Part shown: piece by piece, positions 35 through 26,114 of the stretch
Layout of the letters: each line of letters starts with the position of its first letter
Numbering within the stretch: the stretch's first letter is position 1
NCBI GenBank assembly: GCA_003165005.1
Contig: PLSB01000323.1
Location: forward strand, 1-36,964
Length of the DNA: 36,964 bases
Direction of reading: 5' to 3'
Source: Acidobacteriaceae bacterium
Lineage (GTDB): Bacteria > Acidobacteriota > Terriglobia > Terriglobales > Acidobacteriaceae
Position numbers and translations under genes: made by a program
The notes under the pieces: generated by a model
The model's input: the letters and a program-made list of their open reading frames with translations, nothing else
Database searches by the model: none
What the model was told of the DNA's origin: nothing

Positions 35-907
35 TCACGCGCGGCCCATCGACTTTGGCCCGGAGACGCAGCCGTTCCCGGCAATCGCAAAGCGCAGGGG
101 CAGCTCCACGGCGTGGCGGATGCCGATGCGGCGCGTCACCACCACGCGGCCGGCGCGCGTGCCGTCGTCACGCAGTTGCAGCGGCGATTTGGGATCGAGC
201 AAATCCAGCCCATCGTCGGAGCTTCGCGTGATTCCCAGAGCCTGGCACAGCCGGCTGGGGCCGCCGGTCAAAGAACGCAAGTTGTCCCATCCTCCATCCG
301 CGCCAAATCCTTCTCGCCCCGTGCCCCTTCCTTCTCGCGTCTTTTGCGAGAAGGGTGGGAAACCCTCCAACTCCGGATTCCCATTGCCCGCTCTCTCATC
401 CGTGCCCCATCCTTTTCGCGTTCTTTGCGAAAAGGGTGGGAGACCTGTCAACTTCCGTTCGCTCAGGCCCCGGTTCCGCGCCATCTGCTCCGGCCCCTCC
501 AACGGCTCCAGCGCGCGCAGCAAAACGCATCCGGCGCGGCCCTCGCGCTCGCAGGAGACATTCATGCAGAAGTAGCGCCCGTAAATGGAGTAGACGTAGG
601 CGTGCCCCGCCGGCCCGAAGAGCACCTGGTTCCGCGGCGTAGGGCCGCGATGCGCGTGCGCCGCCGGATCGGCCGGCTGCCGGTGCGGTCCCAGGTAGGC
701 CTCGACTTCGACAATGCGCCCGGCAATGAGCTCCCGCTCTGGGGTCCTTCGGACAAGTATCTTGCCAAGGAGAAGCCGCGCCACGCGCTCCGGCGGCGCC
801 TCAAAAAAGGCGCGGCTCAGCAGCTTGCCTGGCAGCTCGATTCTCCCGCTTCGCTCCAAGAGATACGCTCCGTCGCGCGGCTCAATCCGCCTGTGCTCAG
901 TCTTCAC
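35..907 (-). CDS. DNA-3-methyladenine glycosylase (AAG/MPG family) with an in-frame insertion of ~55 aa
   Basis: VEVEAYLGP...AHAHRGPTPRNQVLFGPAGHAYVYSIYGRYFCMNV...LTGGPSRLCQALGI is the AAG family signature; the insert lies between the RNRGLSE and LTGGPSRLCQALGI segments. Confidence 0.93.
   Translation of the reverse strand: MKTEHRRIEPRDGAYLLERSGRIELPGKLLSRAFFEAPPERVARLLLGKILVRRTPERELIAGRIVEVEAYLGPHRQPADPAAHAHRGPTPRNQVLFGPAGHAYVYSIYGRYFCMNVSCEREGRAGCVLLRALEPLEGPEQMARNRGLSERKLTGLPPFSQRTRKGWGTDERAGNGNPELEGFPPFSQKTREGRGTGREGFGADGGWDNLRSLTGGPSRLCQALGITRSSDDGLDLLDPKSPLQLRDDGTRAGRVVVTRRIGIRHAVELPLRFAIAGNGCVSGPKSMGRA
321..360. repeat. REP-like palindrome copy 1 (CCCCTTCCTTCTCGC-loop-GCGAGAAGGGTGGG)
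   Basis: Inverted repeat read directly; related to 402-441 and 17286-17324. Confidence 0.75.
402..441. repeat. REP-like palindrome copy 2 (CCCCATCCTTTTCGC-loop-GCGAAAAGGGTGGG)
   Basis: Inverted repeat, offset exactly 81 bp from copy 1 (a multiple of 3), inside the glycosylase CDS. Confidence 0.78.
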
Positions 908-927
908 GATCTAGTAATCATTCACGG

Positions 928-1021
928 CCGGTGCGGGCGTGGACGCCCGCACGACAGCCGGTCTCCCACCCCAGCGAGCAAAGACCGCTCGCCGGGGACC
1001 CCGGTCTGGAGACCGGCGCTA
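928..1021. repeat. Cluster of adjacent palindromes (GTGCGGGCGTGGACGCCCGCAC; CCCCAGCGAGC..GCTCGCCGGGG; CCGGTCTGGAGACCGG), BIME-like
   Basis: Three consecutive inverted repeats between the glycosylase and peroxiredoxin genes. Confidence 0.6.
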
Positions 1022-17285: not shown

Positions 17286-17324
17286 CCCATCCTTTCGCCC
17301 TCAAAACGGGCGAAAGGGTGGGGC
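17286..17324. repeat. REP-like palindrome copy 3 (CCCATCCTTTCGCCC-loop-GGGCGAAAGGGTGGGG)
   Basis: Long inverted repeat of the same family as 321-360 and 402-441. Confidence 0.75.
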
Positions 17325-17538: not shown

Positions 17539-17591
17539 CCTCAGTGCGCTCGAGTCGCGCCCGCCCCCGGCGCAATCGGAAAGGAATCGCC

Positions 17592-20500
17592 ATGGATCTC
17601 CGCTCTCACTTTGCCTCTTCGAAGTTTTTCGCTGTTCATCCGGCTGCCGCCATGAGCCTGAACCGGCTCCGGGCGCTCGCAGTTCTGGCCGTAATCTTCT
17701 CGCTCGCCCTGGTGGCCAATGCGCAGTCCGCGCATTACGGCGGGCAGGCCGACGCGGTAGCGACGCAACTTGCTTCACCGCAGTCGCTGGCCGTCGATGG
17801 CCTGGGCAACGTGTTTGTTTCGAGCTCCGTGGACGCGTCAGGTTATCCCGCAGGGGTCTACAAGGTGGAGGCCGTCAACGGCCGGGTCTCGAGTTCCTCG
17901 ACGATGGTTCAGATCGCATCGGCCTACGGAAGTCTGGCCGTGGACGCACAGAACAACCTCTACATCGCCGTCGCAAGCACTCCCACCATCTATAAATATG
18001 CGGCCGTCGGCGGCGAGGTGACCGCGAGTTCGTCCATGACCGTGGTCAGCAGCAACGATTTCACTGCGCCCACGGCGCTGGCCGTCGACAGCAACGGCTA
18101 CCTGATCGTCGTCGACCAGAACAGACACGTTTACCGGCTCGCCCCCAACGACAGCAGCAAGATTCAACTGGGCGCCAGCTACCTTGATGGTCACTGGATC
18201 GTCGGCGTGGCAGTCGATGGCGCCAACAACGTCTACGTGGCCGATTTGAGCTGGGGCGTCGTCGATGAGATCGAGTCCGTGGATGGCGCAGTCTCAGGCA
18301 GTTCATCCATCTGGGATATTGCCTGGCCCAATGGCGCGCTTACGGCCGTAGCGGCAGACACCAAAGGCGATGTCTTCTTCGGAGATAATCCCACTGCCGG
18401 GACGGGAGAGGTTCAGGAGATTCCGGCCGGCTCCACAAATCCCGAAGTCGTCTACAGCAGCTACACGGCTCCCAGCCTTCCTGTCGCGCTGGCGACGGGC
18501 CTGCACGGAGAGATTTACATCGCCGACATTGCCAACGGGTCGATTGTGAATCCGCCGGTGCGCATCGTCCTGGCCACTCCGCCGGATTTCGGCGAGGTAA
18601 CTGTCGGCCAGACCAGCAGCGCGAATCTTCCTTTCACCTTCGATTCCACAACCTCGCTGGGCAGCACCATCGAGAGCGTACTCGGGCAGGGAGTCAGCGG
18701 GCAGGAGTTCATCTACCAGGCGCAAAGCGATACCTCTTATTGCCAGGCAGGTCAAACCTACCAGACCGGCCAGAGTTGCCTGATCGCGGTCCAATTCTCG
18801 CCGCAGTATCCGGGGCTGCGGCTGGGCGCGGCGGAATTGCTGGACTCGAGCGGCAACATCCTGGCCAGCGTGCCTCTGCAAGGCACCGGCGTTGCCTCCC
18901 AACTTTCATACCTCACCTTCACCCCGCCGACCACCCTTTATCGCCAAATCGTGGGCCAGCCTACCGGCGTGGCCGTCGATTCCCATGGCAATGTGTTTTA
19001 CAGCGATGCGGATCGAGGCATGATCCTTGAACTGGTGGGCGCCAGCGGTCCGCCTGTAACGATCGCCAGTCTTGGTACTTACAGCTGTCCCGATGCTCTG
19101 GCCTTCGACGGCGGCGGCAACCTGTTTATGGCAGATTATTGCAGCCACACCGTCTGGGAGATCCAGGCCAACACCAACGGCCAGATCTCCTCGACTTCCA
19201 ACGTCATTAACTTGAGCAGCGTCGTGAGTTATTCTAACGGCTTCAGCGGCTTCGCCGAGCCGTGGGGTGTGGCCGTCGATGGCGCCGGAAATGCCTTCGT
19301 CACCGATGCCAATTCCACCGGCGTAGGCATGGTCTACGAGGTCGTGGCCGACAGTAACGGCCACGTCAACACCAACTCGTCCGTGGTGCAAATCGCGACG
19401 GGCTTCAATCAGCCGCAGGGCCTGGCTCGGGATGCGAATGGAGATCTCTTCCTGGCCGACACGCACAACCTTGTGGTGAAGGAGATCGTGGCCGTGAATG
19501 GGCAGGTCTCGGCAAGCTCCCAGGTGGTGACCGTCGGCAGCGGCTTCCTCTTTCCCACCAGCGTCGCCGTCGATGCCGCCGGCAACGTCTATGTGACCGA
19601 CGACGACAGCGGCGACAACTCCATGGTGAAGGTCATTCTGGCCTCGAATGGCGCGGTCTCGGCCAGCTCCCCGGTCCTCACGCTGACCAACGGCCTCATA
19701 GAGCCCTGGGGAATCACGGTCGATGCCAGCGGCAATCTCTTCTTTACCAATTGGACCTACGCCTCGGTGCAGGAACTGCCCTTCGGCACTGAGCCCACGC
19801 AGATCGCCTTTAATACGGCCACGGCGGTGGGGTCGCTGGATGCGACCGACGATCCGCAGAGTCTTACGCTGGCCAACATCGGCAACGCCGCGCGCAACTT
19901 CGACTCGGCGGCCTCGATCCAGGGAGGAGATTTTCTCTTCGATAGCGCCACAACCTGCTCGCAGTCGGGCGCGTACACGCTCGATCCCGGCAGTTCCTGC
20001 ACGCTGGCCATCGACTTTCAGCCTTCGGCTTCGGGCCCACTCTCGGACACGCTTACCCTTGGCGACAGCTCCCTGCCCGCAATCACGCTCAACGGCACCG
20101 GCACCACGCAGCCCATACTCTCGGTCGCCGCTCTGTACTCGATTGGCTACGTCCAGGCCGGCGCCACGACCTCCACTTTGCTGTCGGTCTCAAACGTCGG
20201 TGGCGCGCCGCTGACGATCGCTTCCATCACGCACACCTCCGGCGCATCCGACTTCAGCCTCGGCGCGGGAGGAAACTGCCCTATCGGCTCCGCCATCGCG
20301 GCAAACACGAGCTGCGCCGTGGAGATCGATTACTCCCCGGCTGCCGGCTTCACCGGCGCTGAATCGGCCGTCTTCACCATCACCAGCGATGGCGGAACAA
20401 AGAACTTTACCGTCAGCGCCTATTCGCTGCTTTCGATGACGCAGCCGGCGGTCGTGGTCTCTTCCACTTCGCTGGACTTCGGCGCGAGGATAATCGGCGC

Positions 20501-23500
20501 CGAGGCGGCAAAGTGGGATAGGGGTACCCCGCTTACGCAACTGACCCTGACGTTGACCAACGAAGGTGCGGGAACACTGCAATTCTCCGACCTGACGACG
20601 ACCACCGGCGTCGAGGACTTCTATTGGCAGTATGAGACCACCAGTGCAGTGTCCAGCAATACCTGTGTCTCGACAAAACACTATGGCACCTCCGAGTTAA
20701 CCACGGGGCAAAGCTGCACCATCCAATATGCCTTCCTGCCCTGGCTGAACGGCGCGCGACAGGGCAATCTGCACATTGGCAGCAACGCTGTTTCCGGCGA
20801 TCTCAACGTGACGCTGACGGGCGTCGGTGTGCTTCCGGCTGGCGTGCTTGCCGTCATTCCGCAGCAGGGATTCTCCTTCAGCGGGGGCGGAAAGCTCGCC
20901 ACCATCGACCCCACTCTCCATAAGGTATTTGCCATCAGCGGCGGGTATTTTACCGAGGTCGATACCAACACGCTGGCCTATAACAGCCTGTCTTTGGGCA
21001 GCCAGGAGAGCCCCAACCAGATGGCTCTCGACGCCACCGCGGGCACGATCTATGGCGGGGCGAACGGCGGGTTTTTCACCATCAATGAGGCGGCAGGGAC
21101 CTGGAACTTCACCCCCGAACTCTACGAGTACTACTACGATATTGCCGTCAACCCCGCAACGAACAAGGCATACCTGACCGATTACGGATCGAATATCGGA
21201 ATCGTGGATGGCAACGCGGGCAACGCGTACTCGGCAATTCATGGGTCGGGCGCAACCTATCTGTTCAGTACCTCGTCCGTGGCCGTGGACTCCACGAGCA
21301 ACCTCGCCTATGTTCTGGACAACTACGTTGGGAAGATCGCGGTGGTCAGCGGGGGCACGCTGCAAACTCCTTTTATTGCAGGATTGCCCACCCAGGGATC
21401 GCTGCTGACCTTCAATCCAGTCTCCAACAAGCTCTACACCAACGGATCGAGCACGGCACTGACGGTGATTGACGGCGCAACCCATGCCGTCAGCAGCATC
21501 GCCGGCATCGACACCACCGCGGTCACCGTGAACCCCGTGACCAATCGCGTCTATGCCACCAACTTCCCGGCGGTGTGGAGCAGCTGGGCCCAGACCGCTA
21601 CGATCGCGGTGATCGACGGCTCCTCGCAGGCGGTTCTGGCCAACGTCCCCGTGGGCCAGGCCAGCAGCGGGGCAGAGGCCATCGCCATCGACACGGTGAG
21701 CAACGAAGTCTATGTTTCCAACGGCGACGACGGAGGCGTCAGCAACAGCGTATCGGTGATCGACGGCGCCACCAACACCGTTTCCGCTACTGTGGCCACG
21801 GACTACGATCCGGGTGCGATCGTGGTAGACGAAGCGAACCACCACGCTTTTGTGCTCAACGAGCGCTTGCTGCCGCAGGGCAACCCCACGGGCAGCATCT
21901 TTGTCATCGCCAGCCCCAAGGAAGATGGGCCGACCGTGGCCCCGGCGATTGCCGCCTCTTTCGGCACGGGAATGATCGGCGTCAATTCCACCACTTCGCT
22001 GAACTTCACCATCACCAATCCCAACAGCAGCTACACGCTTTCCAGCGTCGGCTTTCAGGCGCTGCTTCCCAGCGGCCTGCAGGCCGCGGCGGGAACCACG
22101 GCAGCCTGCGGCGGAGCCCTGACCACGGGCTCGGACGGCACGATCACTTTGGCCGGCGCGATGATTACTCCCGGCGGCCAATGCACCGTCAGCCTCACGG
22201 TGACCGGAGCCGCCGCCGGCACCTACACGCTCACATCCGGCGCGGTCGCCGCCTGGCCCAGCCTGACCGGAAATACTGCATCGGCAACGCTGACGGTAGG
22301 CAGCAGCCCGATCGTCATTGGAACGGTCACGGCATACGGACTGCCTCTGGCCGGCGTGACGATCACTTACCAGGCGGACACATCGAGTTATCAGTCGGGC
22401 GCGACCGTGACCGATAACAACGGGAATTATTCCTTCGCCGTTACCGCGGGATGGAGCGGGACGATTACTCCGTCGCTCACCGGCTACACCTTTACGCCTG
22501 GGAATAACTGGATTCCGGCCGTCACCACCAGCGCCACGCAGAGCTTCACCGCCGTCATCATTCCGCCGGAGGTGATCACCGGATCGACCATCGGTTCGGC
22601 CTCCACCACCATTGCCAGCGGCGGCGCGGTGGCCGACCAGGGCGGCGCGACAGTGACGGCGCGCGGTGTCTGCTATAGCACTGCGGCCAATCCTGCAATC
22701 ACGGACAGCTGCACCTCGGACGGCACGGGCGCCGGAGCCTTTACCAGCACTCTCACCGGCCTGGCGCTGAACACGACCTATCATGTGCGCGCCTACGCTA
22801 CCAGCGCCGCCGGCACCTTCTACGGCAGCGATTTGCAGTTCACTACGATGACTCCGAGCGCATCCAGCGTGGCCGGAGCCTATGCCTACATCACCGGCGG
22901 CATCAGCAATGCTGTTAACGTAATCGACACCGCCAGTCAGCGCGTCCTCGGCACGGTTGTCCTCAATCCGGCAGGGCCGCTGTTTTACGGCGACATCTGC
23001 CCCAATGGCGTTGCCAGCAGTTCCAGCAGCGGGAAGATCTACGTGGCCGCTGTGTGCGTGAACTCCATCTCGGCCATCGACTCAAGCACTCTCAGCGTCG
23101 CCGACTACATCCAGGTGCCTATTACAACTGGCGGCTCGACCATGTCGGCGGTCACCAGCCTGGACGGATCGCTCGTCTACCTGAGCGACGAAGAGGGGCC
23201 GGGCCCAAGTGCCGGGAACATTCACGTCATCAATACCTCCACCGACGCCATCAGCTCCTTCCAGATCGGCAAGGCCTCCTACGACCTGAAGCTGCATCCC
23301 GATGGAAACCGCCTCTACGCAACCAATACGGACGACAGCACGGTGACGGCCGTAGACCTGACCACAGCCACCGTTACGGCCACCATCAACACCGGCCAGG
23401 AGCCGTTCGGCATGGTCATCAACAACGCCGGCACGCGCGCCTATACGGCGAACCACGGCGACAATACGGTCTCCGTCATCGACGTAGCCTCCGGTTCGCC

Positions 23501-26114
23501 CACGCTGAATACCACCCTGCAGACGTTCCCGGTTGGCAACCTTCCCATGGATGTAGCAGTCAGCGCCGATGACAGCCGCCTCTATGTCTCCAATTACAAC
23601 GACCATACAGTCTCGGTTTTCAACACCGCAGGCGACGCGAATACTCTCGTCGGAACCATCACCCTGTCGTACGCGCCACAGGGCCTGGCCATGCAGCCCG
23701 GCAGCGCTTACCTCTGGGTATTGCTGCCGGACGCCGGCGAGGCTGTCATTTTCAATACAGCCGGCGACGCCAACTCCATCGTGAACACCATCGCTGTGAG
23801 TGGAAAGCCCGGCCAGCTCGGATCGTTCTTCTCGACAGTCGCGACAGCAACCGTCCGGCACACCCCCATCATTAACTGGTCTGCTCCGGCGGCAATCACT
23901 TATGGCACGGCGCTCGACAACACGCAATTGAACGCCACGGCCACTTACAACGGATCGACGGTTGACGGAACGTTCACCTATACTCCGGCGGCAGGCACAG
24001 TGTTGAACGCCGGCGCCAACCAGACACTCTCAGTGACCTTCACGCCGACGGACGCCACCGACTACAACGCGGCGACAGGATCGGTGAGCCTGACGGTGAA
24101 CAAGGCGACGCCGACGGTCAACTGGTATGCGCCGGCGGCAATCACTTATGGCACGGCGCTCGACAACACGCAACTGAACGCCACGGCCACTTACAACGGA
24201 TCGACGGTTGACGGAACCTTCGCCTACACGCCGGCCTCTGGCACGGTGTTGAACGCTGGGGCTAACCAAACACTCTCGGTCGCCTTCACGCCGACGGACG
24301 CCACCGACTACAACGCGGCAAACGGAACAGTAAGTCTCACGGTGAGCAAGGCGACGCCGACGGTCAACTGGTCTGCTCCGGCAGCGATTACTTACGGCAC
24401 GGCGCTGAGCAGCGCACAGTTGAATGCCACAGCGAGCTACAACGGATCGACGGTCGCGGGAACCTTCGCCTACTCGCCAGCCTCGGGCACGGTGCTGAAC
24501 GCCGGGGCCAACCAGACACTCTCGGTAACCTTTACGCCGACCGACACAACTGACTACACCACGGCAAACGGAACAGTAAGTCTCACGGTGAGCAAGGCGA
24601 CGCCGACGGTCAACTGGTCTGCGCCGCCGGCGATTACTTACGGCACGGCGCTGAGCAGCACGCAACTGAACGCCACGGCCACTTACAACGGAGCGGCGGT
24701 CGCGGGAACCTTCGCCTACACGCCGGCCTCTGGCACGGTGCTGAACGCGGGGGCCAACCAGACACTTTCGGTCACCTTCACGCCGACAGACACGACCGAT
24801 TACAACACAGCGACAGGATCGGTGAGCCTGACTGTCAACAAGGCGACACCGACGGTCAACTGGACCGCGCCGGCGGCAATCACTTACGGAGCCGCGCTCA
24901 GCAGCACGCAACTGAACGCCACGGCCACTTACAGCGGGTTGAGCGTCGCAGGAGCCTTCACTTATACGCCGGCCTCAGGCACGGTGCTGAACGCCGGCGC
25001 CAACCAAACACTCTCGGTCACCTTCACGCCGACGGACACGACCGACTACACCACGGCACACGGATCGGTGAGCCTGACAGTGAGCGCATTCACTCCAACG
25101 GTGACAGTGACGCCTGGAGCAACCAGCATCACCATCGCACAGGCACTGGCGGTGACCGTGTCGGTGAGCGGGGCAACGGGCGGTTCATCGCCAAGCGGAA
25201 GCGTGATTTTGACGGGCGGCAGCTATACGTCGCCGGCAGTGGCGCTGACGGGCGGAAGTGCGACGTTCAACATACCGGCCAGCACATTGGCCGCGGGCAA
25301 TTACACCTTCAAGGCCAGCTACACACCAGACGCGAGCAGCTCATCGAATTACAACAGTGGCTCAGGGACGGCTTTGACGGCGGTGTCGGTGAATGGCCTG
25401 CAGCCGATCATCGCCGGCCTGCTGCCGGCATTTACCACCGCGGACGGGCCGGCCTTTACGCTGACCGTAACGGGAACCGGATTTGTCTCCGGCTCGACGG
25501 TTTACTGGGGCACTACCGCGCTCACAACGACGTTCGGAAGTTCTACACAGCTAACCGCTCAGGTGCAGGCAGTAGACATCTCCGCTGCGGGCATTACATC
25601 GATCACCGTGCAAACGCCAGCGCCCGGTGGTGGCACTTCCAACGTATTCGAGTTCGAGGTCGATTCGGGCGGGGCGGGAACCAAGCCAACCTTCACGGTC
25701 GTGTCGGATACAGTAACGCCAGGCTCCTCGGCATCCTACCGGGTAACGCTGCCTTCTTCAGCCACGAATGTGAGCGTCCAGTGCCTGGGTCTGCCCAGCG
25801 GCGCAGCCTGCAGCTATTCGGCCGCAACCGGCACACTGACGATCTCAACCTCCACGACGACACCGGCGGGCACCTACCAGATCGTTGTCGTCGTTACCGA
25901 GACGCTGCCTGGCACATCTACATCCTGGATCTTTTTGCCGATTCTGCTGCTGCCGTTGGCGAGGATGCGCAGGAAATGGGCCAAACAGCAAATATGGCTG
26001 ATGCTGTGCCTGGCAATTGCGCTGGCTGCCGCCGCTACGACGATTGGCTGCGGAGGCTCGTCGCAATCGCACACGGTCACCAGTTCGGGAACCGTAACCC
26101 TTGTTGTCCAATAG
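17592..26114 (+). CDS. Giant (~2840 aa) exported protein: NHL propeller, choice-of-anchor-D type domains, YVTN propeller repeats, tandem Ig-like (MBG-type) repeats, IPT/TIG domain, C-terminal hydrophobic segments
   Basis: Signal peptide; recurring GVAVDGAGNVYVAD units; VSVIDGATNTVSATV units; five WSAPAAITYGTAL..LNATATYNG repeats; IAGLLPAFTTADGPAFTLTVTGTGF TIG motif. Confidence 0.93.
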   Translation: MDLRSHFASSKFFAVHPAAAMSLNRLRALAVLAVIFSLALVANAQSAHYGGQADAVATQLASPQSLAVDGLGNVFVSSSVDASGYPAGVYKVEAVNGRVSSSSTMVQIASAYGSLAVDAQNNLYIAVASTPTIYKYAAVGGEVTASSSMTVVSSNDFTAPTALAVDSNGYLIVVDQNRHVYRLAPNDSSKIQLGASYLDGHWIVGVAVDGANNVYVADLSWGVVDEIESVDGAVSGSSSIWDIAWPNGALTAVAADTKGDVFFGDNPTAGTGEVQEIPAGSTNPEVVYSSYTAPSLPVALATGLHGEIYIADIANGSIVNPPVRIVLATPPDFGEVTVGQTSSANLPFTFDSTTSLGSTIESVLGQGVSGQEFIYQAQSDTSYCQAGQTYQTGQSCLIAVQFSPQYPGLRLGAAELLDSSGNILASVPLQGTGVASQLSYLTFTPPTTLYRQIVGQPTGVAVDSHGNVFYSDADRGMILELVGASGPPVTIASLGTYSCPDALAFDGGGNLFMADYCSHTVWEIQANTNGQISSTSNVINLSSVVSYSNGFSGFAEPWGVAVDGAGNAFVTDANSTGVGMVYEVVADSNGHVNTNSSVVQIATGFNQPQGLARDANGDLFLADTHNLVVKEIVAVNGQVSASSQVVTVGSGFLFPTSVAVDAAGNVYVTDDDSGDNSMVKVILASNGAVSASSPVLTLTNGLIEPWGITVDASGNLFFTNWTYASVQELPFGTEPTQIAFNTATAVGSLDATDDPQSLTLANIGNAARNFDSAASIQGGDFLFDSATTCSQSGAYTLDPGSSCTLAIDFQPSASGPLSDTLTLGDSSLPAITLNGTGTTQPILSVAALYSIGYVQAGATTSTLLSVSNVGGAPLTIASITHTSGASDFSLGAGGNCPIGSAIAANTSCAVEIDYSPAAGFTGAESAVFTITSDGGTKNFTVSAYSLLSMTQPAVVVSSTSLDFGARIIGAEAAKWDRGTPLTQLTLTLTNEGAGTLQFSDLTTTTGVEDFYWQYETTSAVSSNTCVSTKHYGTSELTTGQSCTIQYAFLPWLNGARQGNLHIGSNAVSGDLNVTLTGVGVLPAGVLAVIPQQGFSFSGGGKLATIDPTLHKVFAISGGYFTEVDTNTLAYNSLSLGSQESPNQMALDATAGTIYGGANGGFFTINEAAGTWNFTPELYEYYYDIAVNPATNKAYLTDYGSNIGIVDGNAGNAYSAIHGSGATYLFSTSSVAVDSTSNLAYVLDNYVGKIAVVSGGTLQTPFIAGLPTQGSLLTFNPVSNKLYTNGSSTALTVIDGATHAVSSIAGIDTTAVTVNPVTNRVYATNFPAVWSSWAQTATIAVIDGSSQAVLANVPVGQASSGAEAIAIDTVSNEVYVSNGDDGGVSNSVSVIDGATNTVSATVATDYDPGAIVVDEANHHAFVLNERLLPQGNPTGSIFVIASPKEDGPTVAPAIAASFGTGMIGVNSTTSLNFTITNPNSSYTLSSVGFQALLPSGLQAAAGTTAACGGALTTGSDGTITLAGAMITPGGQCTVSLTVTGAAAGTYTLTSGAVAAWPSLTGNTASATLTVGSSPIVIGTVTAYGLPLAGVTITYQADTSSYQSGATVTDNNGNYSFAVTAGWSGTITPSLTGYTFTPGNNWIPAVTTSATQSFTAVIIPPEVITGSTIGSASTTIASGGAVADQGGATVTARGVCYSTAANPAITDSCTSDGTGAGAFTSTLTGLALNTTYHVRAYATSAAGTFYGSDLQFTTMTPSASSVAGAYAYITGGISNAVNVIDTASQRVLGTVVLNPAGPLFYGDICPNGVASSSSSGKIYVAAVCVNSISAIDSSTLSVADYIQVPITTGGSTMSAVTSLDGSLVYLSDEEGPGPSAGNIHVINTSTDAISSFQIGKASYDLKLHPDGNRLYATNTDDSTVTAVDLTTATVTATINTGQEPFGMVINNAGTRAYTANHGDNTVSVIDVASGSPTLNTTLQTFPVGNLPMDVAVSADDSRLYVSNYNDHTVSVFNTAGDANTLVGTITLSYAPQGLAMQPGSAYLWVLLPDAGEAVIFNTAGDANSIVNTIAVSGKPGQLGSFFSTVATATVRHTPIINWSAPAAITYGTALDNTQLNATATYNGSTVDGTFTYTPAAGTVLNAGANQTLSVTFTPTDATDYNAATGSVSLTVNKATPTVNWYAPAAITYGTALDNTQLNATATYNGSTVDGTFAYTPASGTVLNAGANQTLSVAFTPTDATDYNAANGTVSLTVSKATPTVNWSAPAAITYGTALSSAQLNATASYNGSTVAGTFAYSPASGTVLNAGANQTLSVTFTPTDTTDYTTANGTVSLTVSKATPTVNWSAPPAITYGTALSSTQLNATATYNGAAVAGTFAYTPASGTVLNAGANQTLSVTFTPTDTTDYNTATGSVSLTVNKATPTVNWTAPAAITYGAALSSTQLNATATYSGLSVAGAFTYTPASGTVLNAGANQTLSVTFTPTDTTDYTTAHGSVSLTVSAFTPTVTVTPGATSITIAQALAVTVSVSGATGGSSPSGSVILTGGSYTSPAVALTGGSATFNIPASTLAAGNYTFKASYTPDASSSSNYNSGSGTALTAVSVNGLQPIIAGLLPAFTTADGPAFTLTVTGTGFVSGSTVYWGTTALTTTFGSSTQLTAQVQAVDISAAGITSITVQTPAPGGGTSNVFEFEVDSGGAGTKPTFTVVSDTVTPGSSASYRVTLPSSATNVSVQCLGLPSGAACSYSAATGTLTISTSTTTPAGTYQIVVVVTETLPGTSTSWIFLPILLLPLARMRRKWAKQQIWLMLCLAIALAAAATTIGCGGSSQSHTVTSSGTVTLVVQ
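23877..25092 (+). repeat. Five tandem copies of a 246-bp (82-aa) Ig-like module
   Basis: Equivalent TGG codons at 23877, 24123, 24369, 24615 and 24861: exact 246-bp period. Confidence 0.95.

Follow-up and report, generated by a model that had tools for sequence, protein, structure and literature searches.

In-frame copies of a REP-like palindrome in a DNA glycosylase gene and other conserved genes of an Acidobacteriaceae bacterium

The AAG-type DNA glycosylase gene of an Acidobacteriaceae bacterium encodes an unusually long loop that contains two palindromes, and this raises the question of what the palindromes are and how they came to lie within a conserved enzyme. We analyzed the window, which is the whole stretch of 36,964 nucleotides (contig C55), and the genome to which it belongs (G000, a 3.9-Mb, 75%-complete MAG of 327 contigs). 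We consider it likely that the insert consists of two tandem copies and one half copy of an Acidobacteriaceae REP-type palindrome, and that this palindrome owes its spread to a REP-associated tyrosine transposase (RAYT), is tolerated in loops and then decays.

Palindromes in the AAG gene

Pfam and NCBIfam profiles identified the host gene as an AAG enzyme of 290 amino acids (Table 1), and an alignment of 45 sequences indicated that the conserved AAG residues were retained. The earlier note had described two palindrome copies 81 bp apart in this gene, and both the repeat search of the window and the pattern search agreed with it. The repeat search revealed 54-nt repeats at 319–372 and 400–453 that were 83% identical at a spacing of exactly 81, with 14-bp inverted arms at 325–338/346–359 and 406–419/427–440. 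Each palindrome was imperfect, 35 nt long and in frame with the gene; both matched the pattern with 0 mismatches, and 100 shuffles yielded 0 matches. The two copies differed at one arm pair, T-A in copy 1 and C-G in copy 2, on both sides, and one of the two changes replaced K with E. Because both sides of the arm changed, pairing has persisted within the coding region.

Table 1. Features of the window. The fold z values are for single-strand folding.
Feature	Position	Strand	Evidence
AAG-type 3-methyladenine DNA glycosylase gene	35..907	-	Pur_DNA_glyco, PF02245, E=1.3e-59; NCBIfam NF002003 over cut-off
AAG palindrome copy 1, CCCACCCTTTTCGCAAAGAACGCGAAAAGGATGGG, read as LPPFSQRTRKGWGT	406..440	-	repeat and pattern search; fold z=-4.1
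AAG palindrome copy 2, CCCACCCTTCTCGCAAAAGACGCGAGAAGGAAGGG, read as FPPFSQKTREGRGT	325..359	-	repeat and pattern search; fold z=-3.3
Third, half copy in AAG (right half of the palindrome)	298..317	-	repeat family D2, 80% identity
Extra AAG loop, approximate extent	271..460	-	congener comparison; pLDDT <50 for residues 163-203
Intergenic palindrome, same family as the AAG copies	17286..17322	-	pattern searches of window and genome

The loop from NRG to GP was ~68 amino acids long in G000 and ~12 in most congeners, and the two palindromes make up most of it. The ~55 extra amino acids given in the earlier note fit the whole loop with its flanks, which is ~56 amino acids longer than usual; each palindrome itself codes for only ~14. 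The insert was not family-wide. The close relative G024, whose AAG was 83% identical to that of G000 over residues 25–149, had the short loop (~12 amino acids) and grouped with G000 and L089 in the AAG tree (support 100/98). Decayed palindromes were found in the AAG loop of G035 and G022, elsewhere in the tree. Long loops required at least four changes on this tree, two of which were forced by well-supported branches. The nearest relative with an empty AAG site had already diverged, with a dS of about 0.76. In an AlphaFold2 model, residues 163–203 had pLDDT values below 50 and the rest formed a confident core, with a TM score of 0.87 against human AAG. The insert is thus predicted to be a disordered segment on an intact fold.

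Several other sequences were observed around AAG genes. In the intergenic region upstream of AAG in the window (956–1021), 39 nt matched part of the long NagZ loop of G013 (L237) at 92%, and this stretch looks like another dispersed repeat. A GTCAGC-type short tandem sequence at 1060–1110 resembled the serine-rich portion of the TrmD loop of the same genome (L178). In G023 and G031, palindrome-like peptides (PLFEQRALEGWGT and LPPIEQKTLDGWGT) were present just before the AAG start, in an N-terminal stop-to-stop extension (L055, L056); they may belong to a 5' leader and not to the protein.

The palindrome family and a candidate transposase

The palindromes recur elsewhere in the genome: a strict pattern gave 167 matches in this MAG, compared with 2 for the reversed-pattern control. 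Neither of the two outcomes that the earlier note listed as refuting, a family-wide loop or unrepeated palindromes, was thus seen. The third family member, placed between genes near 17286 by the earlier note, was found there; a 2856-aa open reading frame (17544–26114) follows it. Sampled contigs totaling 1.22 Mb contained 99 exact copies; the sample was chosen with a bias to palindrome-bearing contigs, so per-megabase rates are not extrapolated from it. Palindrome counts in other species of the genus ranged from 0 to 127. When 396 genomes sampled across the phylum were searched with a stricter pattern, every match fell within the Acidobacteriaceae. No earlier description of this family was found in the literature searched, which included few subscription papers.

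The palindrome arms covary: in the 1.22-Mb sample, the four inner arm pairs were all Watson-Crick in 83% of copies, compared with 14% when the arms were re-dealt. Spacer and stem were uniform across the sampled copies. The listed G000 copies retain one mispaired C-A in the stem (CCCACCC opposite GGATGGG), and this makes the hairpin polar. A GTGG foot was present in 23 of the 99 copies and GTGC in 25, where the genomic rate of GT[AG]G is 0.0076 per position; the AAG palindromes carry neither foot. In 81% of copies none of the six frames of core plus tail was interrupted by a stop codon; the figure was 19% for windows drawn at random from the genome and 7% for shuffled sequence. The copies share descent, and the percentage is therefore no tally of independent events. 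In the 1.22-Mb sample only ~10 copies were in confirmed genes and the majority lay outside genes; three-mismatch matches inside open reading frames were taken as chance.

Among the Y1 transposase genes of the MAG, L062 matched the NCBIfam RAYT profile NF047646 at 116.7 bits (cut-off, 80) and is by this profile a RAYT. It had palindromes on both sides, on one side as an array of the palindrome unit at 82-nt spacing. Loci of its relatives in the genus held 30 palindromes in 93.5 kb, compared with 24 in 567.6 kb of control loci, an approximately eightfold enrichment. Five of the six closest RAYTs, L062 itself included, were flanked by one palindrome on each side, inverted and with tails outward (L385–L388, L390); those of L387 had identical arms, and a further RAYT (L408) also had an inverted flanking pair. 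The GTGG foot was present at 6 of 12 RAYT-flanking copies. A general link of the palindrome to all Y1 transposases was rejected, since other Y1 loci held just 5 palindromes in 102 kb; in this genome only one of eight Y1 genes was palindrome-flanked. The high copy number, mostly outside genes, and a RAYT flanked by inverted pairs identify the palindrome, at the sequence level, as a RAYT-associated REP. Within a RAYT open reading frame of G034 (1429–2046), the C-terminal codons were a decayed palindrome (L228:1988–2021), so that this transposase gene bears its own repeat in frame.

Some copies are part of a larger unit bounded by terminal inverted repeats (TATTGATCCGGCC and TAGAGCATTTTCACT are examples), and the moeA insert described below carries one such unit whole (CTATTGATCTGGCAA...TTGCCGGATCGATAG). 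The palindrome could accordingly be the core of a MITE moved by a DDE transposase via outer terminal inverted repeats, with the RAYT link secondary. However, copies within such units are a minority, only about one-fifth of the exact copies exceeded control scores for inverted repeats, and the outer repeats were of several unrelated kinds round one conserved core. Together with the enrichment at RAYT loci, these observations make a MITE origin improbable.

In-frame copies in other conserved genes

Besides AAG, in-frame palindromes were present in at least seven genes: nagZ, anmK, queA, moeA, trmD, hemW and an NTP-transferase gene. Copies were called in frame from the codon-position bias on both sides together with a Pfam domain; orthologue comparison covered nagZ, queA, moeA, hemW and trmD, and the anmK and NTP-transferase cases rest on Pfam. 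The palindromes were read in several frames and both orientations, and hemW contained two copies in two frames. Three palindrome-bearing candidates were not counted as hosts, namely two open reading frames with no Pfam match (L148 and L143) and a glycosyltransferase open reading frame in which the palindrome precedes the domain (L161).

Orthologues of the compared genes often lacked the insert, or contained decayed or intact copies, or had other dispersed repeats in the same loops. G000, G031 and G017 shared one position for the QueA insert, whereas G014 had it at a different position and most others lacked it; the shared position may reflect one ancestral insertion or several. In HemW, decayed palindromes were found in G024 and G035. 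In comparison with G024, six host genes had pN/pS values of 0.11–0.39, which span all the time since the split and not just the time since insertion; by this measure the host genes are under purifying selection.

Loops of TrmD (G021, G027, G061), HemW (G029) and AAG (L091) matched dispersed repeats, each at 19 to 53 places in sampled G000 contigs, in a test built on simple sequence anchors; the repeat in the L091 AAG loop was different from the palindrome. None of 62 control segments of QueA, HemW and TrmD had three or more hits. Among AAG control segments 4 of 37 did, possibly from stop-to-stop extensions of the open reading frames. These loops thus tolerate repeats of more than one kind. Two more dispersed families, which read QGTTSVVP...ALAPEG and SGHDFSR...ALAPA, were observed in core-enzyme loops, namely TrmD loops (L361, L369, L374) and a HemW loop (L341), and they recur widely across the genome.

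The inserts might instead be functional modules under selection: they could form an mRNA hairpin that regulates expression, for instance, or a loop altering substrate handling. The paired difference between the two AAG copies, which on one side alters the encoded residue, would fit such a role. We regard this as quite unlikely, because orthologues frequently carry decayed copies (HemW of G024 and G035, AAG of G035 and G022), different repeats occupy the same loops, and many orthologues have no insert at all. We also find it doubtful that the family is adapted to genes, its core being kept stop-free in all frames. In that case RAYT insertion would serve as an in-frame mutagen of loops and, along with other dispersed repeats, would reshape the same core-enzyme loops again and again.

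Origin of the inserts and relation to known systems

Growth of the AAG loop with no mobile repeat, in which slippage tandemly duplicated sequence from the loop or its flanks, would fit the 81-nt tandem layout with its third half copy and the 82-nt spaced array adjoining the RAYT gene, but it is very unlikely, since the duplicated unit belongs to a family with more than 150 copies elsewhere and slippage accounts for the second AAG copy, not the first.

For the REP-type origin that we prefer, we propose the following course. A RAYT acting on the single-stranded hairpin probably spread the family, and the one described here presumably mobilises the palindrome. New copies would land mostly between genes. 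A copy landing in frame in a length-tolerant surface loop would add a disordered segment and be tolerated, because the core is stop-free in nearly all frames; we infer that insert-bearing proteins are made and active and that such insertions are near neutral. Tolerated copies would decay with time until they look like ordinary loop sequence. In AAG, one unit was most likely inserted first, with the 81-nt duplication following it or accompanying it.

The family shares with known REP and RAYT/TnpA_REP systems (PMC2817692, PMC8266576, PMC6006769) a short imperfect hairpin, high copy number, a stem mismatch, compensatory arm variation and a transposase between inverted copies; the GTGG foot of some copies may be a further common feature. 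The REPtron arrangement is a tyrosine transposase gene flanked by two inverted REP copies (PMC2817692, PMC6006769). Unlike in those systems, the foot here is GTGG or GTGC, lies three bases from the stem and is missing in about half of the copies; the stem is longer, up to ~14 bp, and the family is confined to Acidobacteriaceae in our sample. TIR-flanked tyrosine-transposase elements (TIRYTs) are likewise Acidobacteria elements with a Y1 transposase and dispersed inverted repeats (PMC3733652), although their flanking repeats are described as long terminal inverted repeats.

GTAG and CGTC REPs were reported in frame inside conserved genes, including DNA-repair genes, in 2013, and tolerant loops were proposed (PMC3733652, Di Nocera and colleagues). 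Our observations share with that study in-frame REPs in conserved genes and the idea of loop tolerance; they differ in the repeat family and the lineage, and in that orthologues here show copies in decay as well as other dispersed repeats occupying the same loops. The classic in-frame palindromes in unrelated conserved genes are the Rickettsia palindromic elements (RPEs; Ogata 2000; PMC10969869), the parallel drawn in the earlier note. It holds in substance because at least seven other conserved genes bear in-frame copies. By its features the element itself is a RAYT-associated REP and not an RPE: RPEs are described as ~150 bp long with a conserved peptide open reading frame (PMC10969869), whereas the core here is ~42 nt, is translated in several frames and in either orientation, and is linked to a RAYT. 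RPEs are thus the right analogy. Intragenic REPs were already known (PMC3733652); new here are the lineage, its RAYT and the finding that the same loops have repeatedly taken up different repeats.

Palindromes that code for protein, previously described in Rickettsia and a few REP-bearing species, are thereby extended to a soil-bacterial family with a candidate transposase. Empty, intact and decayed sites provide comparable stages of mobile repeats becoming protein sequence, and the enzymes concerned are open to assay. Annotators should be aware that a long loop in a core enzyme of acidobacteria can be a captured repeat. In this soil acidobacterium, scattered repeats are predicted to add new stretches to core proteins.
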